NCBI RefSeq assembly: GCF_003352915.1
Contig: NZ_CP022314.1
Span: 3,955,218-4,019,217 of the forward strand
Source: Arthrobacter sp. PM3
Lineage (GTDB): Bacteria; Actinomycetota; Actinomycetes; Actinomycetales; Micrococcaceae
Length of the DNA: 64,000 bases
Reading direction: 5' to 3'
Program-made: the position numbers and the translations under genes
The notes under the pieces: generated by a model
The model's input: only the letters and a program-made list of their open reading frames with translations
Database searches by the model: none
Told to the model about the DNA's origin: nothing
In this document: one piece after another, positions 35,636 through 49,189 of the stretch
How the letters are laid out: every line of letters starts with the position of its first letter
Position numbering within the stretch: the first letter of the stretch is position 1

Positions 35636-38600
35636 ATGTTCCGGCTCGCAAAGCTGTCGCTGGCCAACCGGGCCCTGATCGCGCTGATCACGGTGTTCGC
35701 CACCGTGTTCGGCGTGATCACGATGTCCTCGCTGAAGCAGGAACTCATCCCGTCCATCGAGTTCCCGCAGATCACGGTCATCAGCTCCATGCCGGGGGCG
35801 TCGCCGGAAGTCGTCGACAAGCAGATCAGCGCGCCCCTGGAAAAGGCGCTCAACAGCGTCGAAGGGCTCGAGTCGACGTCGTCGACCTCCCGCAACGGCG
35901 TCTCGCAGATCACCCTGGCCTTCACCTACGGCACCAACCTGGACCGGGCCCGGAACCAGATCGACCGGGCGATCTCCAACGCCCAGCAGTCGCTGCCCAA
36001 GGACGTCCAGCCGCAGGCCATCGCCGGGAGCATCAGCGACTTCCCGATCGTTTTCCTGGCCGTGTCCTCGGACAAACCGCTCAGCGAACTCAACGCCGAC
36101 CTCGCCCGGCTCAGCGTGCCCCGGCTGCAGAAGCTCGACGGCGTCCGGGGCGCCGATGTCACCGGCGGCGCCACCGAGCACATCCGGATCCTGCCGCGGC
36201 CCGCGGACATGGCGGCGTCGGGCGCGGGCATCCAGTCCATCAGTGACGCCCTGAAGAACAACGGTACGCTGGTACCGGCCGGCACGATCGAGGAACAGGG
36301 CAAGACGCTCTCGCTGCAGATCGGCAGCCCGGTGGACTCGCTCGATGCCATCAGGGCCCTGCCCCTGGGCAGCGCCCGCGACGGGGCAACGATCGGCAGC
36401 GTCGCGGACGTCAGCCTGGTCGAGGACGCCCGGACGTCCATCACGCGTACCAACGGCAAGGAAACCCTGGCCGTCTCCGTGACCAAGAAGCCCGACGGCG
36501 ACACGGTGGCGATCTCCCACGCCGTGAAGGACGCCATCCCGCAGCTCGAGGCCGAACTCGGGTCCAACGCCAAATTCACCCCGGTCTTCGACCAGGCGCC
36601 GTTCATTGAGAAGTCCATCAAGGACCTCACCACCGAGGGCCTGCTGGGGCTCGGGTTTGCGGTCCTGGTGATCCTGGTGTTCCTGATGTCCGTGCGCGCG
36701 ACCCTCGTCACGGCCGTGTCCATCCCGCTGTCGTTGCTGATCACGTTCATCGGGCTCTCGGCCACCGGCTACTCCCTGAACATCCTGACCCTCGGGGCGC
36801 TGACCATCGCGATCGGCCGGGTGGTGGACGACTCGATCGTGGTCATCGAAAACATCAAGCGCCATTTGAGCTACGGCGAGGACAAGATCACCGCCATCGT
36901 GACCTCCATCCGGGAGGTCGCCGGTGCCATCACCGCGTCCACCCTGACCACCGTGGCCGTGTTCCTGCCGATCGCCTTTGTCGGGGACCTCGCCGGGGAG
37001 CTGTTCCGGCCCTTCGCCCTCACGGTGACCATCGCCCTGCTTTCCTCGCTGCTGGTTTCGCTCACGATCGTCCCGGTGCTGGCGTACTGGTTCCTGCGCA
37101 CCCCGGCCGTCACCGGATCCGCCGCTGGTTCTGCTGTCGGCATTGCAGCCGAGGCGCACGAGGCCGAGCAGCGCACGCTGCTGCAGCGCGGCTACCTTCC
37201 GGTCCTGTCCGGGACGCAGCGGCACCCGGTCCTGACGCTGGTCGCCGCGGCGCTGGTGCTTGCCGGGACGGTGGCCATGTCCCCGCTGCTCGCCACGGAC
37301 CTGCTGGGCCGCTCCGGCGAGAACAGCATGACGGTCAAGCAGGCCCTGCCGGCGGGCACGAGCCTGGCCGAAGCCACCGCGGCGGCCATCAAGGTCGAAG
37401 ATGTCCTGCGCGGCGTCGAGGGGATCAAAGACGTCCAGTCCACCACCGGCAACGCCCAGACCGGATTCTCGGCCCTGCTGTCCACCGGAGCGTCGAATTC
37501 GACCTTCACCGTGGTGACGGACGAAAAAGCCAACCAGGGCAAGCTCCAGGACACCGTCCGCACCGAACTTGCCAAGCTCGGCGACGCCGGCAAGATCACG
37601 GTCGGGTCCCAGCAGGGCGGCTTCGGCACGTCCTCGACCGTGGACATCACCCTCAAGGCCGCCACCACCGCGGACCTCCGGACCGCCAGTGACGCCATGG
37701 TCAAGGCCATGGACGGGGTGCCCGGCAGCAGCGAGGTCGCCACCAACCTGGCTGCCAGCCAGCCCGTGGTCCAGGTCAAAGTTGACCGGGCCAAGGCCGT
37801 CGCGGCCGGCCTGAACGAAGAACGCGTGGCCGGGGTCCTCGCCGCCACGATCAGCCCGATCCCCGCCGGAACAGTCAGGATCGACACCGACGACTTCCCG
37901 GTACGGATCGGCGAGGGAACCCGCTTTACGAGCATCGACGCCGTCCGTGCGATCCCGCTCCCGACGGCGGCCGGTGCCGTGCCGCTGGGCAACATCGCCT
38001 CCGTGGAACAGGTCGATGTACCGGTCTCCATCACCGCCAGCAACGGCCAGCGCACCGCGAAGGTCTCGGTGACGCCGTCGGGCGCCAACCTGGGTGCGGT
38101 GAGCACCGAGGTCCAGAACCGGCTCAAATCGGTCCAGCTGCCGCCCGGGGTGACCGCAACAATCGGCGGCGCCACAACTCAGCAGGCAGACTCATTCCGC
38201 CAGTTGGGGCTCGCGCTGCTGGCCGCCGTCGCTATTGTCTACGTGATCATGGTGGCCGCCTTCAAGTCCCTCATCCAGCCACTGATCCTGCTGGTTTCGG
38301 TCCCCTTCGCAGCGACCGGCGCCATCGCCCTGCTCGTGATCACCGGCGTGCCGCTCGGCCTGCCGTCACTGATCGGCATGCTGATGCTCGTGGGCATCGT
38401 GGTGACCAACGCGATTGTGCTGATCGACCTCATCAACCAGTACCGCCAGCCGCGCGACGGCCAGCCGGGCATGAACGTGGCGGACGCCATCACGCACGGC
38501 GCCCGCCAGCGCCTCAGGCCCATCCTCATGACGGCCCTCGCCACGGTGTTCGCCCTGACCCCGATGGCCCTGGGCCTGACCGGCGGCGGAGGCTTCATCT

Positions 38601-38848
38601 CCCAGCCCCTGGCCATCGTGGTGATCGGCGGCCTGATTTCCTCCACCGTGCTCACGCTCATCCTGGTTCCGGTGCTGTACCGGCTCGTCGAGGGCCGGCG
38701 CGAACGCATGGCCCTGCGGAAGTCCCTGCGCCGCGGCCGCCACTCCGCACCGGCAGCCGGCGCGTCGGTCGGCCCGGCGACCGGCGAGCCTGAGGAGTTC
38801 CCGGACGAATTCCCGGAGGACGCCCCCCTGCCCGCGGGGCCGCGTTAG
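35636..38848 (+). CDS. RND-family efflux permease (AcrB/MdtB-like)
   Basis: 1070 residues, the full HAE1-type architecture: TM1 (about 12-30), first porter domain, TM2-6, TM7 at about 530, second porter domain, TM8-12. The paired Asp of the proton relay is in VVDDSIVVIENI (TM4). No membrane-fusion or outer-membrane partner is encoded nearby, as expected in a monoderm. The C-terminal tail is acidic and Pro-rich. ATG 35636 has AGGAGACC upstream. The gene converges with the peptide synthetase gene, the two stops overlapping by 4 bp. Substrate unknown. Confidence 0.88.
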   Translation: MFRLAKLSLANRALIALITVFATVFGVITMSSLKQELIPSIEFPQITVISSMPGASPEVVDKQISAPLEKALNSVEGLESTSSTSRNGVSQITLAFTYGTNLDRARNQIDRAISNAQQSLPKDVQPQAIAGSISDFPIVFLAVSSDKPLSELNADLARLSVPRLQKLDGVRGADVTGGATEHIRILPRPADMAASGAGIQSISDALKNNGTLVPAGTIEEQGKTLSLQIGSPVDSLDAIRALPLGSARDGATIGSVADVSLVEDARTSITRTNGKETLAVSVTKKPDGDTVAISHAVKDAIPQLEAELGSNAKFTPVFDQAPFIEKSIKDLTTEGLLGLGFAVLVILVFLMSVRATLVTAVSIPLSLLITFIGLSATGYSLNILTLGALTIAIGRVVDDSIVVIENIKRHLSYGEDKITAIVTSIREVAGAITASTLTTVAVFLPIAFVGDLAGELFRPFALTVTIALLSSLLVSLTIVPVLAYWFLRTPAVTGSAAGSAVGIAAEAHEAEQRTLLQRGYLPVLSGTQRHPVLTLVAAALVLAGTVAMSPLLATDLLGRSGENSMTVKQALPAGTSLAEATAAAIKVEDVLRGVEGIKDVQSTTGNAQTGFSALLSTGASNSTFTVVTDEKANQGKLQDTVRTELAKLGDAGKITVGSQQGGFGTSSTVDITLKAATTADLRTASDAMVKAMDGVPGSSEVATNLAASQPVVQVKVDRAKAVAAGLNEERVAGVLAATISPIPAGTVRIDTDDFPVRIGEGTRFTSIDAVRAIPLPTAAGAVPLGNIASVEQVDVPVSITASNGQRTAKVSVTPSGANLGAVSTEVQNRLKSVQLPPGVTATIGGATTQQADSFRQLGLALLAAVAIVYVIMVAAFKSLIQPLILLVSVPFAATGAIALLVITGVPLGLPSLIGMLMLVGIVVTNAIVLIDLINQYRQPRDGQPGMNVADAITHGARQRLRPILMTALATVFALTPMALGLTGGGGFISQPLAIVVIGGLISSTVLTLILVPVLYRLVEGRRERMALRKSLRRGRHSAPAAGASVGPATGEPEEFPDEFPEDAPLPAGPR

Positions 38849-41800
38849 GCGCGCGGGCTCGGGGCCTTGGCCCGGGCGGCCCGGTGCGTCCGGTGGGCTC
38901 CATGGGTTACCCGCGGGGGCTTCGGCAGTCCGCCCCCTGGCTGGGAGCCGTTGTTCCTGTGGCGGGGTTCGGTGCTGTGCCGGGGACCGCTGGAGAGGCC
39001 GGCCGGCCGCCGCTTCCAGGCCGCGACGGGGGCCAGCACTTCGCGCGCCGGGTTGCCCGTGAAGGTCGAATTTTCCGGCACGTCCTCGCCCTTCATCACC
39101 ATGGCGTCGGCCCCGAGGGTCGATCCGTCGCGCATCGTCACACCGTAGTTGACCCAGCCGTCCACCCCGATGGAGCAGCGGTTGCCGAAGACGATGTAGT
39201 CCGACTTGAACGTGCCGTCTTCCATGGAATGGCCTTGAACGTGGACTCCCTCGTTGAAGGTGCAGTCATCGCCAATCGTCACCAGGGTCTTCTCCGGCAT
39301 GTTCAGGCCCGCGTCATACATCCGCTTGCCCACCCTGACGCCCAGCAGCCGCCAGATCATGGGCTTGAACGGCGTGCCATTGAACGGTGCCCCGCCCAGC
39401 AGCTTCCACAGCCGTTCGTGCCGCCAGAAGTAGCGGTCATAGATGGAGCAGTACTGCGGTGTCAGGCGGCGGAAGCCCATCACGGAGCGCTCCACCAGGG
39501 CCATGAAGAGCACCCTGAACACCATCAGCCCCAGCATGGCGCCGGCGACGGCCAGGACACCGAGGAAGCTGTGCGCGGACACGGCAACGGCGCCCGCCAG
39601 GGTGGCCGCCACCAACAGGACATACCGTACTGACAGGAACAGCACCATGCTCACGATGTTGTGCCGGTTCTTCGCCGGGAGCAACCGGTGCATGGCCTCG
39701 GCAATCTTGAGTTCGTCAAACCGGCTGTCACGCTGGACGGACCGGGGAATCTCGAACGCTGGCGAGCCCAGCAGCCCGACGTCACGCCGGACCGGGCCGT
39801 CGATGGGAATCATCACCTTGGTTGCCAGCAGACAGTTCTCCCCGGCCTGCGCCCCGATGGGGAACGTGATGTTGTTGCCCAGGAAGTTATGTCCGGCGAT
39901 GCGGACCCTTGAGAGCCGGAAAGAGGTGTTGGTGTAGTCGGCGTTCATCATGTTCAGGCCGTCCGACACCATGGTCCCTGTTCCGACGGAGTTCAGGAAC
40001 GGCGTTTCGTGGCCCAGCGTGGGGCCGAAGTTCGAGCCTGTCTGTTCCACCTTGCCCAGGTCCCAGCCCAGGGCGCGCAGGTAAGGCACAATGTAGGAGC
40101 TGTCACCGAAGACGTCCTTGTAAAGCTTGATGTTCGACACGCGGGCGATCATGCGATGGATGGTGAAGTGCCAGCCGTAAAGCGGGTAGACCACATCCGG
40201 TTTGATGAAGACGTTCAGCAGGCGCGGGCCGAGGAGGACGGTCACCAGACCGGTGAACAGCCCGACGATGAACAGCACCAGGGTCACCACTACGACGTCG
40301 GCAAAGAACGTGAAGGCGCCCAGCTGCAGGTGTCCGGAGTCCAGATAGGGCGGCAGTAGAGCCGCCAGCCCGAGGACGAAAGCGGGCACAACCAGGACCA
40401 GGCGGTTGAACAGCTGGAGCAGCGAGTAGATCACCCGGCGTCGGGTGCTGCAGTGGGCCGCCGGGACCCGCAGGTAGTTCACGTCGGCACGTGCGGCGGG
40501 GGAACCGTGCCAGACCTCGCCGTCCGGCACCGCCTGCGAGGTCTGCAACGATGAAGCGTGGCCCAGCTGGGTGTCGTCGCCCATCGACGTTCCGATGTCG
40601 AGCGTGGTCCGCTCCGAGACCAGCACGTTGCTTCCCAGAGTCACCGGGCCCATCTCGATCATGCCCTCCCGTGCGCGGTAGCACAGGATCGAGGCGTTTT
40701 TGTGGACCACGGTGTTGTCGCCGACGGTGAGCAGGTCCGGGCAGGCAGGCACTTTCCGGGAGAAGATCACCACTCCCTTGCCGATCTTTGCGCCCAGGAG
40801 CCGCAGGTACACCACATACAGCGGCGACCCGGCGAACAGGACGAGCGGATTGGCCCGGGTCAGGGTCTTGACCGTCCAGAAACGGAGATAGGACGGACTC
40901 CAAATCCGGATGGTCCCCGGCTTCCACCGCCCGACGAGAACCCATTTGAGGATGATCGGAGTCACGGACAGGACCACGAAGGTCGCGGCGCCGAAACCGA
41001 TGGAGCGGATCCACATGTCAAGGAGCGTGCTTCCGCCCGAGGTCCATTCGTACCCCACGATCAGCAGCCACGCCGCGTACATCGTGTACCCCAGGAAGAT
41101 CAGCAGTTGGATCACTCCGCACAAGCCGTACTGCAATGAACTCACCGGGCGGAACGGCGCCGCAGGCTCGACGTCGGTCTCCAGCACGGCCGTGCTCGTC
41201 ACCGATTCGCTGTGCCGGGCCTCGAGGCACGCGGCAAGCTGCCGGACGGTCGGATTCTCGTAGATGTCCTGCATAGCCGCCGGCGGCAGCGCGGTTTCTT
41301 TCCGGATGCGGGCGCAGAACCGCGCCATCAACAGAGAGTCTGCGCCGAGGTCGTTGAAGAAGTGGGCGTCGGCGGACACCTTGTCCAGGCTCAGCACGGC
41401 GCCAAGCTGCTCGGCCAGGGTTTCCTCGGCAGCGGTTTCCGGCGCCGCGTACGCCCCCGCAGCCGACTGGCTGATCCTGTGCTCCGGACGCGGCAACCGT
41501 TTCCTGTCCACCTTGTCGCTGGCCATCATGGGAATGGCGTCCAGCTGTTCAAAATATGCCGGCACCATGTAGCCGGGAAGCCGGGTGCGCAGCATCCGGT
41601 GGAGCTCACGGGCATCAACGTCCGTGGCGTCCTGGCGCAGGGTGTAGTAGGCGGCCAGTTCCACCGTTCCGGGTTCCGGCTGGTACGTCTGCACAACCGC
41701 CTGCGCGATACCGGGCAGCTGCAGGAGGATGGATTCGATTTCGCTCAGCTCGATGCGGTAGCCGCGGATCTTGACCTGGGTGTCGATCCGGCCGAAGTAC

Positions 41801-43128
41801 TCGAGTTCGCCGTCGTCGTTGATCCGGCCCAGGTCCCCGGTCCGGTAAATCCGGCCGGAGGGGTTGTTCTTGATCCCCACGAAGTCCGGAACAAAGGCCC
41901 GTTCCGTCAGATCCGGCCGGTTGACGTATCCCCGGGCCAGCCCGACGCCGGCCAGGCCGATTTCCCCCGTTTCACCGGGCGGCAGGGCGCGCAGCTCCTC
42001 GGGATCCACGATGACCGCCGTGTACGTGGGCAGGGGCACGCCGAGGGACACGGGCGTGTCCGGGTCCAGGAGGGACCAGGTGGCGGTCACGGTCGCTTCG
42101 GTGGGGCCGTAGACGTTCAGGAAGCGGCGGCCCGGGCGGTGCCACCGCGCGACCAGGTCCTTCGGGCAGGCCTCGCCCGAGACCAGCAGGAAACGGAGCC
42201 CGGGCAGGTCCTCGTCGAGGGTGGCCAGCAGCGTCGGCACACAGCAAAGCGCCGTGATGCGTTTTTCCTGCAGGTACTCCGCGAGCTCGGCCCCCAGCAT
42301 GCTGGACCGGCCCGGCTTGGGCACCAGGGTGGCTCCGACCATCCAGGCGACCCAGATCTCCTCCACCGAAAAGTCAAAGGCGATCGTCATGCCCTGGTAC
42401 ACGCGGTCCTCGGGCACAATGCCGTAGATGTCGGAGGCCACCCGGACAAAGTTGCAGATGCTGGCGTGCTCGACGGCCACGCCCTTGGGCCGGCCGGTCG
42501 AGCCGGAGGTGTAGATGATGTAGGCCAGTTCGTCGGCCGTCCCGCCGACGTCCTCCGCGCCCAGGCGCGAGGAATCCTTGGCGTCGATCTGTGCCTCCAC
42601 AGCATCCAGGCACACAGTCACGGCGGCGACCTCGGGCAGCAGGTCCTTCAGATGGGACAGGGACAGGACCATCGCCACGGTCGCATCTTCGACAATGTAT
42701 TGGAGGCGGTCCGGCGGGAACCCCGGATCCAGGGGAACATAGGCCGCGTGGATCTTCAGGACCGCGAGCATCGCCACGTAGGACCGCCACGGCTGGTCAA
42801 ACAGCAGGGCAATGCGGTCACCGGGCCGTGCGCCGCACACCAGCAGATGGCGCGCCAATTGGTTCGCCCGCTCGTCAAGCTGCGCGTAGGTCAGGACGAT
42901 GTCCCCCGCGTCCACGGCGACCTGGTCGGCCAGTCCCTGTTCCCGCAGGCGGTCACAACGGTCCTCAAAGAGTTGTTCCAGCCGCTCCCCCCGCTGCCAG
43001 CGGGCGGCTTGATCCGGCGCGGCCGACGTCAGGACCGTAGCACCGCCCGGGCCGCCGTCCATTGACATTTTGCCGCGCAACTCCGGGGGGCGGGTGAGGC
43101 TGTTGCCGATCCTCGCGGTCTTGCCCAT
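38845..43128 (-). CDS. Pls/PosA-type membrane non-ribosomal peptide synthetase
   Basis: 1427 residues. An adenylation domain (about 45-545) has YTSGSTGRPKG at 206-216, YGPTE at 340-344, YRTGDLGR and the terminal Lys in SDKVDRKRLP. A thiolation domain (about 565-640) carries the phosphopantetheine Ser598 in DLGADSLL. There is no condensation or thioesterase domain. Membrane helices then alternate with three left-handed beta-helix-like acyltransferase modules (about 770-890, 1030-1130, 1290-1380). This is the architecture of epsilon-poly-lysine synthetase, which polymerises a diamino acid through its side-chain amine. The substrate-pocket Asp is in IAFDFSVEEIW. Upstream ask and ectB suggest 2,4-diaminobutyrate as monomer (inference). 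AAGGAG precedes ATG 43128; the ask gene ends 15 bp upstream. Confidence 0.9.
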   Translation of the reverse strand: MGKTARIGNSLTRPPELRGKMSMDGGPGGATVLTSAAPDQAARWQRGERLEQLFEDRCDRLREQGLADQVAVDAGDIVLTYAQLDERANQLARHLLVCGARPGDRIALLFDQPWRSYVAMLAVLKIHAAYVPLDPGFPPDRLQYIVEDATVAMVLSLSHLKDLLPEVAAVTVCLDAVEAQIDAKDSSRLGAEDVGGTADELAYIIYTSGSTGRPKGVAVEHASICNFVRVASDIYGIVPEDRVYQGMTIAFDFSVEEIWVAWMVGATLVPKPGRSSMLGAELAEYLQEKRITALCCVPTLLATLDEDLPGLRFLLVSGEACPKDLVARWHRPGRRFLNVYGPTEATVTATWSLLDPDTPVSLGVPLPTYTAVIVDPEELRALPPGETGEIGLAGVGLARGYVNRPDLTERAFVPDFVGIKNNPSGRIYRTGDLGRINDDGELEYFGRIDTQVKIRGYRIELSEIESILLQLPGIAQAVVQTYQPEPGTVELAAYYTLRQDATDVDARELHRMLRTRLPGYMVPAYFEQLDAIPMMASDKVDRKRLPRPEHRISQSAAGAYAAPETAAEETLAEQLGAVLSLDKVSADAHFFNDLGADSLLMARFCARIRKETALPPAAMQDIYENPTVRQLAACLEARHSESVTSTAVLETDVEPAAPFRPVSSLQYGLCGVIQLLIFLGYTMYAAWLLIVGYEWTSGGSTLLDMWIRSIGFGAATFVVLSVTPIILKWVLVGRWKPGTIRIWSPSYLRFWTVKTLTRANPLVLFAGSPLYVVYLRLLGAKIGKGVVIFSRKVPACPDLLTVGDNTVVHKNASILCYRAREGMIEMGPVTLGSNVLVSERTTLDIGTSMGDDTQLGHASSLQTSQAVPDGEVWHGSPAARADVNYLRVPAAHCSTRRRVIYSLLQLFNRLVLVVPAFVLGLAALLPPYLDSGHLQLGAFTFFADVVVVTLVLFIVGLFTGLVTVLLGPRLLNVFIKPDVVYPLYGWHFTIHRMIARVSNIKLYKDVFGDSSYIVPYLRALGWDLGKVEQTGSNFGPTLGHETPFLNSVGTGTMVSDGLNMMNADYTNTSFRLSRVRIAGHNFLGNNITFPIGAQAGENCLLATKVMIPIDGPVRRDVGLLGSPAFEIPRSVQRDSRFDELKIAEAMHRLLPAKNRHNIVSMVLFLSVRYVLLVAATLAGAVAVSAHSFLGVLAVAGAMLGLMVFRVLFMALVERSVMGFRRLTPQYCSIYDRYFWRHERLWKLLGGAPFNGTPFKPMIWRLLGVRVGKRMYDAGLNMPEKTLVTIGDDCTFNEGVHVQGHSMEDGTFKSDYIVFGNRCSIGVDGWVNYGVTMRDGSTLGADAMVMKGEDVPENSTFTGNPAREVLAPVAAWKRRPAGLSSGPRHSTEPRHRNNGSQPGGGLPKPPRVTHGAHRTHRAARAKAPSPRA

Positions 43129-43143
43129 CCTTTAGCTCCTTCG

Positions 43144-44628
43144 CTAGAAGTGACGTGCCACGGTTCTGCCGATCCGCGGGACAGGGGTCAGGTCCCTGCC
43201 GGATACTGCAACCCATGTGCGGACCGGGCGGCCGACGGCAGCTGTATGGACGGCAGGTGTGTGGTTGTCAACGTGCGCGGTCACCGGTTCGCTTTCCGCC
43301 GGGGCCATGCCGAACGCCCGGCGGACGGCACGTTCGGCGTCCGCGAGCCGGTCGGTGGGGGTGGCGACGCCCAGGCAGGTCTCGGAGATGTCGACGAGGT
43401 CGAAGTCGACGTCGACGTCGGACAGGGCCTTGAGGAAAGTGCAGAAGATTTCCGGCGAGGACCTCATCCCCAGGCCCGTGACGGACACCCTTCCCATCTC
43501 GTTATCGTGCTGCAGGCCCTGGAATCCGATCGCTCCCTGGGCGGCGTGCAGCACGTCCAGGGCACGTTCTGCCTGCGCAGCGGGAAGGATCAAGGCGACG
43601 TCGGAACGCGCCGAACCGGGGCCGGCCGGTTTCTGGACGATGTTTTGTACTGTTGCGCCCGACCGCGACAGCGCTTGGAAGACGTGCGCCATGCATCCCG
43701 GTTCGTCCGGTATTCCGGCGACGATGATTTTCGATGCCGAGTTGACCCCGGCCACGGCGGTGACCACGGGTTGCTCGCGTGCCGGCTCGCGCCGCTCATG
43801 GCGGTCGAGGCCGGGCAGGATCAGGGTCCCCGGCTCGGCGACAAAGGAGGACCTGACATGGATCGGAATATCGAATCGGCGTGCGTATTCCACGCACCTC
43901 AGGTGGAGGACCTTGGACCCGGAGGCCGCGAACTCGAGCATTTCCTCGCTTGAGAGGACGTCCAGTTTTCGCGCCGTCGGCACAACCCGGGGGTCCGCTG
44001 TGTAGACACCGTCGACATCCGTGTAGATCTCGCAAATGCCGGCCCCCAGTGCTGCCGCCAGTGCCACCGCGGTCAGGTCCGAGCCGCCCCGGCCGAGGGT
44101 GGTGACTTTCCGACGCTTCTTCGTTCTGCCCTGGAATCCCGCAACGATGGGCACTTCGCCGCGGGCGAGGCAGGCACGGACGCGGTCGGGCCGGACGTCG
44201 GTGATGTGCGCCTTGCCGTGGACGCTGTCGGTAATCAGTCCCGCCGCACTGCCGGTGAATGTCCGCCCCACCTGGCCAAGATCGGCCAGGGCGATGGCCA
44301 GCAGGGCCGAGGACACGAGCTCCCCGATGCTCAGGAGGGCGTCGAGGTCCCCGGGCAGCGGCCTGGTGGAAACTCCGGCGGCGAGGTCACAGAGTTCATC
44401 GGTGGTGTCCCCCATGGCCGACACGACCGCCACCACGCGGAACCCGTCCTCCCGGGTCTTGGCTATCCGCTCGGCGGCGCGGACGATACCGGCGGCATCC
44501 GCCAGCGACGAACCGCCAAACTTCTGGACTATGACACTTCCGGCCGGTATGACGCTGCCGGGCGGCATCGGCCGGCCAGCTTCCTCTGGATCACTATCGT
44601 TGACCGCTAGTGCCTTACGGGTGCCCAT
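43144..44628 (-). CDS. Aspartate kinase dedicated to the diaminobutyrate cluster
   Basis: A 494-residue aspartokinase. An N-terminal extension precedes VIVQKFGGSSLAD (KFGGS at 36-40). The kinase domain includes VAVVSAMGDTTDEL, LGRGGSDLTAVALAAALGA and EIYTDVDGVYTADPR. Two ACT domains follow (about 300-440), then a C-terminal tail of about 55 residues not usual in LysC. It makes aspartyl phosphate, the first step to aspartate semialdehyde. GGGGAGAG precedes ATG 44628. Its position between ectB and the synthetase suggests a pathway-specific copy, possibly with altered feedback control; the residues deciding this cannot be read reliably by eye. Confidence 0.9.
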   Translation of the reverse strand: MGTRKALAVNDSDPEEAGRPMPPGSVIPAGSVIVQKFGGSSLADAAGIVRAAERIAKTREDGFRVVAVVSAMGDTTDELCDLAAGVSTRPLPGDLDALLSIGELVSSALLAIALADLGQVGRTFTGSAAGLITDSVHGKAHITDVRPDRVRACLARGEVPIVAGFQGRTKKRRKVTTLGRGGSDLTAVALAAALGAGICEIYTDVDGVYTADPRVVPTARKLDVLSSEEMLEFAASGSKVLHLRCVEYARRFDIPIHVRSSFVAEPGTLILPGLDRHERREPAREQPVVTAVAGVNSASKIIVAGIPDEPGCMAHVFQALSRSGATVQNIVQKPAGPGSARSDVALILPAAQAERALDVLHAAQGAIGFQGLQHDNEMGRVSVTGLGMRSSPEIFCTFLKALSDVDVDFDLVDISETCLGVATPTDRLADAERAVRRAFGMAPAESEPVTAHVDNHTPAVHTAAVGRPVRTWVAVSGRDLTPVPRIGRTVARHF

Positions 44629-44697
44629 TTCTCTCCCCGAAATCTGCTTCGATTCTTGCGCGCGGTCTGTGCCCCACGCGGCGGTCGGTGCGGATGC

Positions 44698-45969
44698 TCA
44701 AACGCTGGAGACCAGGGCGACCGGGATCCCGGTCACGGATTCTGCGGCTCCGGCGAGAATGTCGAGTCCTTTCTGCAGCTCCTGGGCGCTGATTGTCAGC
44801 GCGGGCATGGTCTTGAGGACCTCGCTCTCCGGCCCGGACGTTTCGAGGAGCAGCCCTCGGGCGAACGACTCGGCAGCAATCTTTTCCGCTGTACCGGGAC
44901 TGGGGTAGTAAATGCCCGCGAGCAGGCCGCGGCCGCGGACGGTGGCGCCTTCGACGCTCGCCGCGATCCGGGCAAGCCCGTCATGCAACTGGCCAATGAG
45001 CGCGGCGACATGCGCTTCGAACCTGCCGTCCCGCCAAAAATGGTCCAGCGCCGCGGTTCCTGTGACGAAGGCCGGGTTGTGCCCGCGGAATGTGCCGTTG
45101 TGCTCGCCGGGCTTCCAGATGTCCAGTTCGGGCCTGAAGAGGGTCAGGGCCAAAGGCAGCCCGAAGCCCGAGATGGACTTCGACAGGGTGATGATGTCCG
45201 GGGTGATCCCGGCCTCTTCAAAGCTGAAGAAGGTGCCGGTCCGTCCGCAGCCGGCCTGGACGTCGTCAACGATCAGCAGGATGCCGTGATCGTGGCACAG
45301 CTCCGCGAGGCCCCGCAGCCAGGATGCCCGGGCGGCCCGGAGTCCGCCCTCGCCCTGGACCGTCTCCACGATCACCGCGGCTGGCTTGTCGAGCCCCGAA
45401 CCGCTGTCTTCCAGGGCGTGCCGCAGCCAGAGGAAGTCCGGCGCCTGCCCGTCGAAGAATCCGTCGTAGGGCATGCTGGTTGTATTCGTCAGCGGGACGC
45501 CGGCCCCCTGGCGTTTCATGGAATTGCCTGTCACCGACAAGGAGCCCAGAGTCATCCCGTGGAACGCATTGGTGAAGCTCAGGACCTGCTGCCGGCCGGT
45601 AGCCTTGCGCGCCAGCTTCAGAGCCGCCTCCACGGAGTTGGTTCCCGTGGGCCCGGGGAACATGACTTTGTAGTCCATGCTCCGCGGCTGGAGGATCACT
45701 TCCTGGAAGGTTTCCAGGAAACGCCGCTTGGCGGGGGTTTTCATGTCGAGCGAGTGGACGATCGCGCCGGAGAGCAGATATTCAACCAACGGGCGCAGGA
45801 GCACCGGATTGTTGTGTCCGTAGTTCAGGGCCCCCGCACCGGAGAAGAAGTCCACGTATTCGCGGCCGTCTTCACTGTAAAGGGTGCTGCCTGCGGCACG
45901 TTCAAAAACGGTGTCCCAACTGCGGCAATAGCAGCGAACCTCAGACTCCAAGCTCTCAAAGATATCCAT
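44698..45969 (-). CDS. ectB: Diaminobutyrate--2-oxoglutarate aminotransferase (EctB-like)
   Basis: A 423-residue fold-type I class III aminotransferase converting aspartate semialdehyde and glutamate to L-2,4-diaminobutyrate. Visible are MFPGPTGTNSVEAALKLAR, AFHGMTLGSLSVTGN, the cofactor Asp in IVDDVQAGCGRTG and the PLP lysine K264 in TLSKSISGFGLPLA. The match is to EctB rather than to ornithine or GABA transaminases. ectA and ectC are absent, so ectoine is not the product here. ATG 45969 is preferred over a TTG at 45996. It heads the transcript into ask and the Pls-type gene, 69 bp before ask. Confidence 0.9.
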   Translation of the reverse strand: MDIFESLESEVRCYCRSWDTVFERAAGSTLYSEDGREYVDFFSGAGALNYGHNNPVLLRPLVEYLLSGAIVHSLDMKTPAKRRFLETFQEVILQPRSMDYKVMFPGPTGTNSVEAALKLARKATGRQQVLSFTNAFHGMTLGSLSVTGNSMKRQGAGVPLTNTTSMPYDGFFDGQAPDFLWLRHALEDSGSGLDKPAAVIVETVQGEGGLRAARASWLRGLAELCHDHGILLIVDDVQAGCGRTGTFFSFEEAGITPDIITLSKSISGFGLPLALTLFRPELDIWKPGEHNGTFRGHNPAFVTGTAALDHFWRDGRFEAHVAALIGQLHDGLARIAASVEGATVRGRGLLAGIYYPSPGTAEKIAAESFARGLLLETSGPESEVLKTMPALTISAQELQKGLDILAGAAESVTGIPVALVSSV

Positions 45970-46147
45970 CTTTCGACGTCCCCCGTACTTCTGCAACTGG
46001 CGAAGTTTCCCGTGCGTGCCTGCAGCCCGGGCTTTCAGATGACGGGCAGGCGGAAGGGCACGGCGCCTGCGGCGCGCTGCCCCCGGCCCCCGCGGGCCCG
46101 TATTTTCTTGGCCTGCGGAGAGAGTCCGCCGGCAAACTGGGCAGTTA

Positions 46148-46200
46148 CGTCACATCAGCCACGTCACGTCAACAGCGTCACAGACGTCTCGTCGCGTCAC
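46148..46200 (-). repeat. Phased GTGACG direct repeats at the ectB promoter
   Basis: CGTCAC (plus strand) occurs at 46148, 46162, 46176 and 46195, with a CGTCAA at 46167; the first three are exactly 14 bp apart. An AGACGTCT palindrome lies at 46182-46189. The cluster overlaps and follows the predicted transcription start. Confidence 0.7.
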
Positions 46201-46226
46201 ATAATGTACGGCTGCCCGGATGTCAA
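46198..46226 (-). promoter_or_regulatory. Promoter of the ectB-ask-pls operon
   Basis: Minus-strand consensus -35 TTGACA (46226-46221), exact 17-bp spacer and -10 TATGTG (46203-46198). The start would be near 46190, inside the GTGACG repeat cluster. Confidence 0.65.
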
Positions 46227-46425
46227 TCTATAGCCAGAATAATCTCAGCTTGCTCACAGCACCTGAGTAGCCGGTACCTGTTTTTTGCGCGTAAGCGGCT
46301 GATAAACTACGTGACTAGTCGCAGGTCCAAGAGGCCTTACGCCAAAGGTGTACTCGAACTTCCCGTAACAGGCCGAATGCCTGTTGCCAACGCCCGAAAC
46401 CTGCCCTAACCTTGGCCGGGCCGCC

Positions 46426-47457
46426 TTATCCCTTGCCTGTGGCGTAGGCCGCGGTGGCGTAGGCGAGGGCGGCGGACATTTCCTTGAGCAAATCGGCGTT
46501 TGTGTTGGCAATGGTGTCGCAGGCCTCGTGGTAGCAGGGATCGAGATGCTTGCCGGCCTGGCCGCCGTACTCCTGCACCTGGGCCTGGGTCTTCTTCTTC
46601 ACATCGCCGGTGAACAGCCCGCCGCCGGGAATGCCCGCCGAGAGGAACGCGTCGTAGTCGGAGCCGCCGTCGAACGGCGTGGTCTCGGCCGGCAGCGAGT
46701 TCTCTTCGAAGAAGCGGAAGAAAATGTCCTCGATCGCCTTCGACCCGGCCGGCCCGGCGTTCCCGAAGTCCGTGCCGTCGCCGTCGTGCACGGACCGGAC
46801 CCCGTTGGGCGACGCGGCCATGTCCACGTTCAGGTTCGCCGCGGTCTGTTGCTTCTCGGTCCGGCTGAGCTCGTCGACATAGTGCTGGGATCCGTAGAGC
46901 CCGTCTTCCTCCCCGCCCCAGAACGCGAACCGGACCCGGTTGGCCGGCGCGATCCCGGATTCCTTCAGCCACCGCGCGGTCTCGAGGACGGCCGCGACAC
47001 CGCTGGCGTTGTCATTGATGCCGGGACCCTCGGGCACCGAGTCCAGGTGCGCGCCCACCACCACGGTACGCTCCGCGCTGCCGCCGGTGTCGGCGAGGAT
47101 ATTGAAGGACTGCACCCGCTTCTTGTTCCGGCCCTCTCCCCGGAAGCTGAAGGCCTGCCGGACCGGCGTGTAGCCGGCCGCCCGCAGCTGCTCCTCGACG
47201 TAGCGGCCCGATTCCTCGTACCCGTTCGTGCCGGAGGCGCGGTTGCCGTCATTGGCGTCGGCGATCCGCTGCAGCGCCTCCAAATGGCTGCTCACGCCGC
47301 GGGACTTGAAGTCCGCCAGCACCGTGCGCGCATCCACCGGGCTCACCGGGTCCAGCCGCGAACCGCTGCAGCCTGCCAGGGCGATACTGACCGCACTCAG
47401 GATGACCGCGGCAGCCGCCGCAGTGCGTTTCCGCCTGTCCAATCGTGCACCCGTCAC
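46426..47457 (-). CDS. M28-family zinc aminopeptidase lipoprotein
   Basis: 343 residues. The lipobox ALAGC puts the lipidated Cys at 30. The M28 ligands are visible: GAHLDSV and GINDNASG, the catalytic pair in FWGGEEDGLYGS, FDGGSDYDAFL, and the last His in DPCYHEACDT. It is a surface exopeptidase of the Streptomyces/Vibrio aminopeptidase type. It lies upstream of ectB on the same strand with the ectB promoter between them. A role in trimming a secreted poly-amino acid is possible but unproven. ATG/GTG near 47457 is the only sensible start. Confidence 0.88.
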   Translation of the reverse strand: MTGARLDRRKRTAAAAAVILSAVSIALAGCSGSRLDPVSPVDARTVLADFKSRGVSSHLEALQRIADANDGNRASGTNGYEESGRYVEEQLRAAGYTPVRQAFSFRGEGRNKKRVQSFNILADTGGSAERTVVVGAHLDSVPEGPGINDNASGVAAVLETARWLKESGIAPANRVRFAFWGGEEDGLYGSQHYVDELSRTEKQQTAANLNVDMAASPNGVRSVHDGDGTDFGNAGPAGSKAIEDIFFRFFEENSLPAETTPFDGGSDYDAFLSAGIPGGGLFTGDVKKKTQAQVQEYGGQAGKHLDPCYHEACDTIANTNADLLKEMSAALAYATAAYATGKG

Positions 47458-47530
47458 GGTACGAAGATAGCGTGCCGGCCGGCACAGGGGGAAGGGAATA
47501 TCCGGACGCAGGTGGCGTTATACCTGCCGA

Positions 47531-47548
47531 TACATGCAAATGCATGTA
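47531..47548. promoter_or_regulatory. Operator palindrome TACATGC-N4-GCATGTA
   Basis: A perfect 7+7 bp inverted repeat overlapping the expected -35 region (about 47533-47538) of the LLM-marR promoter. Symmetric sites of this size are typical for MarR dimers, and a marR gene is second in the operon, so autorepression is likely. Confidence 0.65.
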
Positions 47549-47555
47549 ACTCGGC

Positions 47556-47561
47556 TATAGT
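47556..47561 (+). promoter_or_regulatory. -10 box of the LLM-marR operon
   Basis: TATAGT, 8 bp after the palindrome and 42 bp before the LLM oxidoreductase start codon. Confidence 0.5.
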
Positions 47562-47603
47562 GGAAGCAGTTCCCGGATCAGACCGGCCACGGAAAGGCAC
47601 ATC

Positions 47604-48728
47604 ATGCAAATCGGCGTCTTCAGCGTCAGCGACATCACCACCGACCCCACCACGGGCCGGACCCCTACGGAACACGAACGCATCAAGGCGTCCGTGGCGA
47701 TCGCTAAGAAGGTCGAAGAGATCGGCATGGATGTCTACGCGATCGGCGAGCACCACAACCGGCCGTTCTTCTCCTCCTCCCCCACCACCACGCTGGCCTA
47801 CATCGCCGCCCAGACGGAGCGCATCATCCTCTCGACGGCCACCACCCTGATCACCACGAATGACCCGGTCAAGATCGCCGAGGATTTCGCGATGCTCCAA
47901 CACCTCGCGGACGGCCGCGTGGACCTGGTGCTGGGCCGCGGCAACACGGCCCCCGTCTACCCCTGGTTCGGCAAGAACATCCAGGACGGAATCGAACTGG
48001 CGATCGAGAACTACAGCCTGCTGCGCCGGCTCTGGGATGAAGACACCGTCAACTGGTCCGGCAAGCACCGCACCCCACTGCAGAACTTCACCTCCACGCC
48101 CCGCCCGCTCGACGGCGTCGCGCCTTTTGTCTGGCACGGTTCCATTCGCACGCCGCAGATCGCCGAAGTGGCCGCGTACTACGGCGACGGCTTCTTCGCC
48201 AACAACATCTTCTGGCCCAAGGAGCACTACCAGCAGCTGATCGGCCTCTACCGTGAGCGCTACGAGCACTACGGCCACGGCAAGGCGGACCAGGCCATCG
48301 TGGGCCTCGGCGGCCAGTTCTTCATGCGGAAGAACTCCCAGGACGCCGTCAAGGAGTTCCGTCCCTACTTCGACAACGCCCCCGTCTACGGCCATGGTCC
48401 GTCGCTGGAGGACTTCACGTCCCAGACGCCGCTGACGGTCGGGAGCCCGCAGGAGGTCATCGAAAAGACCCTCACGTTCCGGGAGTATTTCGGTGACTAC
48501 CAGCGGCAGCTGTTCCTGATTGACCACGCGGGGCTGCCGCTGAAGACCGTGCTGGAGCAGCTGGACCTGTTCGGCGAAGAGGTCCTGCCGGTGCTCCGCA
48601 AGGAATACGCCGAGAAGACCCCGGCGCACGTTCCGGAACCGCCGACGCACGCCGGCCGGGTCGCCGCGGCGGTGGCTGCCGGGACCGTCGACGCCGGCAC
48701 GGTCGAAAACACGCGTCTGGACGCGTGA
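47604..48728 (+). CDS. LLM-class flavin-dependent oxidoreductase
   Basis: A 374-residue luciferase-like TIM-barrel monooxygenase using reduced FMN. Family features are MQIGVFSVSDI at strand 1, VYAIGEHHNRPFFSSSP, ILSTATTLITTNDPVKIAEDFAMLQHLADGRVDLVLGRG in pieces, and FVWHGSIRTPQIAEVAA. The substrate is unknown. AAAGGCAC precedes the ATG. The TGA stop shares its last base with the ATG of the marR gene (TGATG), so the two are coupled; the regulator probably senses a substrate of this enzyme. Confidence 0.88.
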   Translation: MQIGVFSVSDITTDPTTGRTPTEHERIKASVAIAKKVEEIGMDVYAIGEHHNRPFFSSSPTTTLAYIAAQTERIILSTATTLITTNDPVKIAEDFAMLQHLADGRVDLVLGRGNTAPVYPWFGKNIQDGIELAIENYSLLRRLWDEDTVNWSGKHRTPLQNFTSTPRPLDGVAPFVWHGSIRTPQIAEVAAYYGDGFFANNIFWPKEHYQQLIGLYRERYEHYGHGKADQAIVGLGGQFFMRKNSQDAVKEFRPYFDNAPVYGHGPSLEDFTSQTPLTVGSPQEVIEKTLTFREYFGDYQRQLFLIDHAGLPLKTVLEQLDLFGEEVLPVLRKEYAEKTPAHVPEPPTHAGRVAAAVAAGTVDAGTVENTRLDA

Positions 48729-49189
48729 TGTCTGCCAAGACCACCGAATCACCTGTTCGCCTGGCCGCGGAAACCTGGGAATCCCTGTTCCGCGCCCAGG
48801 TGGCGGTGATGCGCAAACTGCAGGCGGCGCCGGCGTTCAAGGCCCTCGCCGTCAATGAGTACGACGTTCTCTTCACGCTCTCCCGCTGCCCCTCCGGATG
48901 GCTGCGCCTGAACGAGCTCAATGACAACGTGCTGCTGAGCCAGTCCAGCCTGAGCAGGCTCGTGGAGCGGCTCGAAAGGCGCGGCCTCGTGGAGCGGATG
49001 CCGGCCCCGGACGACGGGCGCGGCATCCTCGTCCGGCTCACCGAGGCCGGACGGGACCTGCAGAAGCAGATCGGCCGCGAGCACGTCCGGGACATCGCGG
49101 CCCTGGTGGGTCCTGCGCTCTCCGCCGCGGAACAGCAGGAACTGCTGCGGCTGACCGAGAAGCTCCGCGCCGCGGTCGCCGCCCGCTGA
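48728..49189 (+). CDS. MarR-family regulator of the LLM operon
   Basis: A 153-residue winged-helix regulator. The HTH spans RLNELNDNVLLSQSSLSRLVERLERRGLV and the wing is RMPAPDDGRGILVRLTEAG. Start at ATG 48728, overlapping the previous stop. It probably represses its own operon at the palindrome 47531-47548 and is released by a ligand (inference from layout). Convergent with the transglutaminase-like gene. Confidence 0.88.
   Translation: MSAKTTESPVRLAAETWESLFRAQVAVMRKLQAAPAFKALAVNEYDVLFTLSRCPSGWLRLNELNDNVLLSQSSLSRLVERLERRGLVERMPAPDDGRGILVRLTEAGRDLQKQIGREHVRDIAALVGPALSAAEQQELLRLTEKLRAAVAAR

Follow-up and report, generated by a model that had tools for sequence, protein, structure and literature searches.

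The window analysed here, a stretch of 64,000 nucleotides from the soil bacterium Arthrobacter sp. PM3, carries three genes on its minus strand in the order ectB-ask-pls. The first, ectB (44698..45969, 423 aa), encodes an EctB-type diaminobutyrate--2-oxoglutarate transaminase; ask (43144..44628, 494 aa) encodes a second, pathway-specific aspartokinase; and pls (38845..43128, 1427 aa) encodes a synthetase of the Pls/PosA family, which we propose to be a gamma-poly-L-2,4-diaminobutyrate (poly-L-Dab) synthetase. Coordinates confirm that the three genes lie on one strand, 69 bp and 15 bp apart. The gene set given in the initial annotation is correct, and its list misses a fourth gene on the same strand, encoding an M28 metallopeptidase lipoprotein with a lipobox-like LAGC (46426..47457). 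Between this gene and ectB lies a gap of 456 bp on the minus strand (45970..46425), a candidate promoter region. Scanning the gap for sigma70-like promoters returned no minus-strand match and one match on the opposite strand, against 0.9 expected, and Rfam matched nothing at 38000-49000.

The four genes form an island. Its left border is an AcrB/RND family transporter gene (35636..38848, plus strand), which is convergent with pls and overlaps its end by 4 bp, and its right border is a luciferase-like monooxygenase gene (47604..48728, plus strand); neither is counted in the pathway. Two of the three congeners examined, G546 and G457, have no cluster and show an empty site within the same gene row as the window (SBP, Mqo, RND, monooxygenase, transglutaminase-like, lipoprotein, NifS-like). 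The spacing from RND to monooxygenase is 199 and 286 bp in these genomes, compared with ~8.8 kb in the window, where pls, ask, ectB and the M28 gene fill the interval, indicating that the M28 gene was gained or lost together with the cluster at this site. In the third congener, G531, the locus was not seen in the 200 kb examined. We considered the RND transporter as a pathway gene and rejected it, since it borders the empty site in the congeners without a cluster and has no match near the clusters of L029-L047. In L007, L008, L009 and L014 the island holds an extra transporter-like gene between the monooxygenase and M28/ectB, assigned to MFS by Pfam in L007 and by matching frames in the other three; the window has none.

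Within the genus (24 genomes), only PM3 and G581 hold the synthetase at more than 80% identity. Full-length relatives of at least 46% identity occur in 18 of 295 genomes sampled from the family, with a 19th, in G668, split. This type of cluster is therefore patchily distributed. Comparison of gene order, suggested by the initial annotation, shows that ectB and ask are kept beside pls in all eight named Arthrobacter loci, with the block intact as in the window. The pairing of ectB with pls is seen again in other genera and orientations.

The architecture of the synthetase was examined by domain scan, hydropathy and a predicted structural model. All domains are encoded on the minus strand: an adenylation (A) domain (residues 67-546; 41491..42930), a carrier (T) domain (residues 570-635; 41224..41421) with the phosphopantetheine Ser598 in GADSLL, and a C-terminal region (residues 650-1366; 39031..41181) built as three repeats of two long helices followed by a beta-helix acyltransferase-like domain. 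The TIGR02353 terminal domain scores above its curated cut-off (678.6 versus 423.1 bits, residues 669-1361). The scan finds one A and one T domain, and neither a condensation nor a thioesterase domain. By hydropathy and the predicted model, three tandem acyltransferase-like modules are separated by six transmembrane segments, a number reached by manual grouping of nine overlapping or weak hydropathy peaks and accompanied by one further weak peak at 762-780. The model contains three such repeats, with fold matches for modules one and three. These results agree with the initial description of a 1427-residue A-T-membrane synthetase with three acyltransferase-like modules and no C or TE domain. 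Among relatives, the synthetases P0077, P0078, P0079 and P0082 additionally include a 4'-phosphopantetheinyl transferase domain (PF01648) within their chain.

The two supply genes were examined likewise. EctB scores 630.8 against the TIGR02407 equivalog cut-off of 552.2, bearing out its identification as an EctB-like aminotransferase, and by motif we take its PLP lysine to be residue 264 of the 44698-45969 frame. The claim of an extra aspartokinase with an unusual C-terminal tail holds as well: the genome has another aspartokinase-like gene at C1:1986785, 49% identical to the cluster Ask, and the tail is clade-specific, being conserved in 8/9 of the Arthrobacter clade and absent from the remaining aligned rows. 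The regulatory ACT loops have also diverged. In the structures of C. glutamicum LysC, 3ab4 has Phe where 3aaw has Ser; at that loop position the other aspartokinase of the genome has Ser and the cluster Ask has Ala. The two loops read ...PGKAAAIF... and ...QNVSTHG... in the other copy and ...PGCMAHVF... and ...QKPAGPG... in the cluster Ask, and the eight Arthrobacter relatives of Ask have diverged at the same two loops, which we assume to include the feedback positions A279 and S301. Judging from these loops, the cluster Ask is probably free of the usual feedback control.

A dedicated transaminase and aspartokinase are the mark of PldA/PddA-type clusters, and both genes are present here. EctB and Ask could instead provide Dab that goes into ectoine, siderophore or cell-wall synthesis beside an incidental Pls gene, as might be thought from an EctB that exceeds an ectoine-type equivalog cut-off. 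The ectABC operon has EctB in common with the window, but the scan of 13 proteins in and around the cluster revealed neither ectA nor ectC, and a pls gene is present, on which grounds we rejected ectoine as the product. The reported absence of ectA and ectC holds for these 13 proteins; a genome-wide search for EctC gave no match in PM3, but none in the control genomes either. Against incidental proximity also stand the three-gene block in the window and the eight named Arthrobacter loci, the recurrence of the ectB-pls pairing elsewhere, and P0114, in which AMP-binding and PP-binding domains are followed by AA_kinase at 1415-1641. In this protein the synthetase, whose pocket reads DFECLSVVTK, runs on into an aspartokinase, which is good evidence that they work together. 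Together these data make a supply of Dab for other uses very unlikely indeed.

We next consider the substrate pocket. The ten pocket positions were taken from an alignment, with column numbering that we take to follow GrsA, and read D F E C L S V V T K in the window protein (residues 252, 253, 256, 295, 315, 317, 339, 347, 348 and 539). Position 2 has been proposed to set chain length, with Phe in synthetases for diaminopropionate (Dap) or Dab, Met in ornithine and Ala in lysine synthetases, and the Asp and Glu of the pocket are described as conserved across these synthetases (PMC10522769). The window synthetase has Asp at position 1 and Glu at position 3, and Phe253 at position 2 in place of the Ala of lysine enzymes. 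We looked for a lysine or ornithine pocket, which according to the initial annotation would speak against a Dab polymer, and position 2 fits neither. Among 367 aligned rows (two of them gapped at the pocket, the window protein entered twice and some loci duplicating listed proteins) DFECLSVVTK occurs in 209, and position 2 is Phe in 344 and Ala in 21. The 21 Ala rows (DAESIGTVVK or DAESIGTVIK) are accounted for by 20 Lys-type loci plus the Lys-type copy of L040, and the solved A domain of a poly-lysine synthase, 7wew, likewise has Ala at position 2. L040 itself places a Lys-type pls, cut by the end of the stretch, side by side with an ectB-ask-pls-M28 cluster within 20 kb.

Since Phe at position 2 is common to Dap and Dab synthetases (PMC10522769), the synthetase might make a beta-poly-Dap polymer while ectB and ask are used otherwise; indeed the Dap synthetase PDAPS activates Dab in vitro as well, more weakly (PMC4668381). 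A Phe pocket thus fits Dap or Dab alike, and it is the supply genes that point to Dab. Directly upstream of pls stand ectB and ask, kept so in 8/8 named Arthrobacter loci. The domain scan, which took in 13 proteins from the cluster and its surroundings, revealed no SbnA/SbnB-like family. Furthermore L081, a relative with confirmed SbnA and SbnB, uses a different, split synthetase. We regard a Dap product as quite improbable. At L081 (5541-15816), and also at L080, lies a four-carrier protein with a Pls-type C-terminal region and no A domain; its neighbours in L081 are SbnA and SbnB, each scoring over its NCBIfam cut-off, together with TauD, a LuxE-like protein and an A-T protein encoded on its own. 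By its sequence this looks like a diaminopropionate-based Pls with an A domain acting in trans, and L082, L083 and L092 resemble it by match pattern only.

As a point against the Dab reading, an identical pocket with no transaminase match adjoining was found in L029, L030, L031, L034, L037 and L048; the genomes of L030, L031 and L034 hold a second synthetase copy with a transaminase beside it. L048, on the conjugative plasmid pTC1 of Paenarthrobacter aurescens TC1, has a 68% identical synthetase and no adjoining ectB or ask match. Another group (L084-L088, P0272 and others) has the pocket DFEYLGTVTK and no ectB/ask match nearby; scanning its neighbours found a BTAD regulator (L084, L086, L088) and a pyridine nucleotide-disulphide reductase/rhodanese gene (L086, L087, L088). 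At L047 (7495-14099) a Pls with the odd pocket DFEPQSAVSK is followed by a diaminopropionate ammonia-lyase gene, barely above cut-off (278.1 versus 276), and an HGSNAT-type acyltransferase. A HGSNAT_cat or heparan-glucosaminide N-acetyltransferase-like membrane protein recurs by Pls genes in varied arrangements (L030, L032, L043, L047, L052), and could modify the polymer.

The genome of PM3 holds a second Pls, at C1:3147644-3149713, with the lysine code DAESIGTVVK. The open frame of the gene that follows it overlaps this second pls and encodes, by Pfam, an M1 peptidase, the family to which we take PldII to belong. An M1 gene is present at 19 of 20 Lys-type loci (the exception is L069), and an M28 gene at none of the 20. 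No M1 match was found in 33 loci comprising the window, L007-L014 and L029-L052. A polymer of lysine (epsilon-linked) or ornithine, with ectB and ask raising flux, would draw on the same enzyme family as the window cluster, and aspartokinase feeds the lysine pathway as well. Yet position 2 of the window pocket is Phe, not Ala or Met, EctB diverts aspartate semialdehyde from the lysine route, and elsewhere in the genome a distinct Lys-type Pls is accompanied by the M1 peptidase gene. Such a product is highly improbable, and was rejected on the pocket. Because the Lys-type synthetase is separate, PM3 likely makes two polymers, a pairing with precedent in S. celluloflavus, which makes poly-lysine and poly-L-Dab together (PMC8117764).

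The enantiomer was addressed through the racemase. In Streptoalloteichus hindustanus gamma-poly-D-Dab is made with a DapF-like racemase, and the same Pls family and the same ectB/ask supply genes would serve a D-polymer here if a racemase were encoded elsewhere in the genome. The published racemase gene, however, is translationally coupled to the synthetase (PMC8225329). We found no coupled DapF-like gene and no DapF-like ORF in 25001-60000 of the window with a single DapF query, which a very diverged racemase could escape. As PddB is 27% identical to a DapF (PMC8225329), the check leans on a genome-wide profile search, whose sole match at E <= 0.1 is C1:3114466, 0.88 Mb away. The pocket points the same way. 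In P0301 (Amycolatopsis anabasis) and P0309 (Actinokineospora enzanensis) it is DFECLSCVSK, two positions from the window's DFECLSVVTK; both species are named as having synthetase-coupled Dab racemase genes, with activity demonstrated for the Actinokineospora enzanensis racemase (PMC8225329), and from species identity these two proteins would be the synthetases coupled to them. L051, a pls-dat-ask locus on a Streptomyces plasmid, reads DFECLSAVTK, one position from the window. We therefore set a D-polymer aside as improbable. With one distant DapF in the genome, L-Dab is the simpler reading and gamma-poly-L-Dab is predicted.

Taken as a whole, the best explanation of the cluster is that ectB-ask-pls makes a cationic homopolymer of L-2,4-diaminobutyrate, to which we give a probability of roughly 0.8; the linkage, predicted by analogy with the Pls family, would most likely be gamma. 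This supports the cationic Dab polymer of the initial annotation as a predicted product, given the Phe pocket and a gene set equal to pldA-dat-ask, to pdd minus the racemase and to the pls-dat-ask of L051. Positively charged chains of Dab are a known type of natural antimicrobial. The precedent invoked there, that related poly-Dab clusters are known, is a published pathway (PMC8117764, PMC8225329). In the proposed route Ask, probably released from the customary feedback control, would phosphorylate aspartate to aspartyl phosphate, a housekeeping semialdehyde dehydrogenase would convert this to aspartate semialdehyde, and EctB would transaminate the semialdehyde to L-Dab. The adenylation domain of Pls would then activate L-Dab and pass it to the carrier domain of the same protein, and the three acyltransferase-like modules in the membrane would link the units stepwise, with the chain released outside. 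There the M28 lipoprotein, predicted to lie outside the membrane, might trim or destroy the polymer, thus protecting the producer. Of this account, the gene identities, the pocket residues, the architecture and the island are established by the analysis, and the substrate, linkage, enantiomer, loss of feedback, export and role of M28 are predictions.

We examined this proposed polymer-degrading role of the M28 peptidase further. The window protein contains the residues H-D-E-E-D-H, presumably the M28 active-site set, and has a 91% identical paralogue elsewhere in the genome (C1:1643406). An M28 gene lies near 11 of 19 EctB-type loci, 0 of 8 Dat-type, 0 of 20 Lys-type and 2 of 19 other loci (66 loci; transaminase classes agree as expected with NCBIfam cut-offs for the window and five EctB-type and five Dat-type loci, the remaining loci being classed by score to the window EctB alone). 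Of the 11, ten come from the main locus survey and one, L012 at a contig end, from a separate comparison; contig ends shorten L012, L013, L090 and L091. Placement varies: the gene is upstream in the window clade, between ectB and ask on the opposite strand in L035, and downstream in L040, L042 and L043, with two copies in L042 and L043 and 9 bp after pls in L043. Points against a link with EctB-type clusters are that L008 has no M28 gene and L011 a remnant only, that the Dat-type loci all go without one, that L080 and L082 have one and are not EctB clusters, and that the window M28 has its close paralogue elsewhere. Per locus, Fisher's test gives p = 4.5e-5, treating relatives as independent; counted by lineages drawn by eye from the synthetase tree, the figure is 4/8 versus 0/6 genera (one-sided p = 0.07, two-sided 0.085). 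A rough model based on genome M28 density (3 strong matches, 7 in total, in 4.35 Mb) puts the chance of 4/8 at 3e-6 or 8e-5. The results are only suggestive of a link between M28 and EctB-type clusters.

In the poly-lysine system the pls-coupled peptidase PldII breaks down the polymer and shields its producer (PMC9223678, PMC8117764), and by analogy the M28 peptidase may be the Dab counterpart of PldII. A wider proposal, which we hold at somewhat short of even odds, is that M28 is a dedicated gamma-poly-Dab hydrolase giving immunity, like M1 by poly-lysine synthetases, so that each polymer has a matched peptidase family, and that the Micrococcaceae EctB-type clusters amount to a second poly-Dab system put together independently, with the two Dab transaminase types replacing one another. 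Judged by listings and passages, the open-licence literature searched gave no report of an M28 peptidase gene next to a pls, and a dedicated one would be new if real. If peptidase and polymer are indeed matched, the peptidase would be a genomic marker of polymer type and a tool enzyme cutting poly-Dab.

A tree of 61 synthetases (FastTree) separates the branch of the window clade from L051, P0301 and P0309, and EctB-type and Dat-type loci interleave on this tree, indicating that transaminases were probably swapped on more than one occasion. Streptomyces celluloflavus and Streptoalloteichus are not named among the matches listed (the best 120 each of 6138, 7505 and 3808 proteins); L051 serves here with P0301 and P0309 as stand-ins for PldA (WP_110952768) and PddA (WP_083959783). 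Poly-Dab is described from a few Streptomyces-type producers in the published accounts (PMC8117764, PMC8225329), and the open-licence papers searched held nothing on poly-Dab in Arthrobacter. A complete Arthrobacter pathway together with a Lys-type synthetase in one cell would widen the range of producers and let two polymers be compared within a single organism.

Among known systems, pldA-dat-ask of S. celluloflavus, which makes gamma-poly-L-Dab, shares the synthetase architecture, the transaminase and aspartokinase genes and a coexisting poly-lysine synthetase (PMC8117764). The window differs in its EctB-type transaminase (TIGR02407), Dat-type in the stand-in L051, in its order (ectB-ask-pls versus pls-dat-ask), in its separate Pls branch and in the M28 gene of its island. 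The pddA-pddB-pddC-pddD cluster of Streptoalloteichus hindustanus shares a Pls-type synthetase, a dedicated aspartokinase and a transaminase (PMC8225329), whereas the window yielded no PddB, the DapF-like Dab racemase. Epsilon-poly-lysine Pls with PldII of Streptomyces albulus has the A-T and three-membrane-module plan and a peptidase gene by the synthetase, but Ala where the window has Phe at position 2; in Arthrobacter the Lys-type pls adjoins M1 and the window pls M28. PosA of Acinetobacter baumannii, making delta-poly-ornithine, has the same NCBI family name (Pls/PosA, TIGR02353), the pocket DMEHNGTVSK and a single-gene operon (PMC10522769). What is new is that the synthetase belongs to a Pls branch distinct from the Streptomyces type and is paired with EctB rather than Dat. 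Together the comparisons show a kind of poly-Dab system that is already known, of which the Arthrobacter form is a variant with an extra part, the M28 peptidase.
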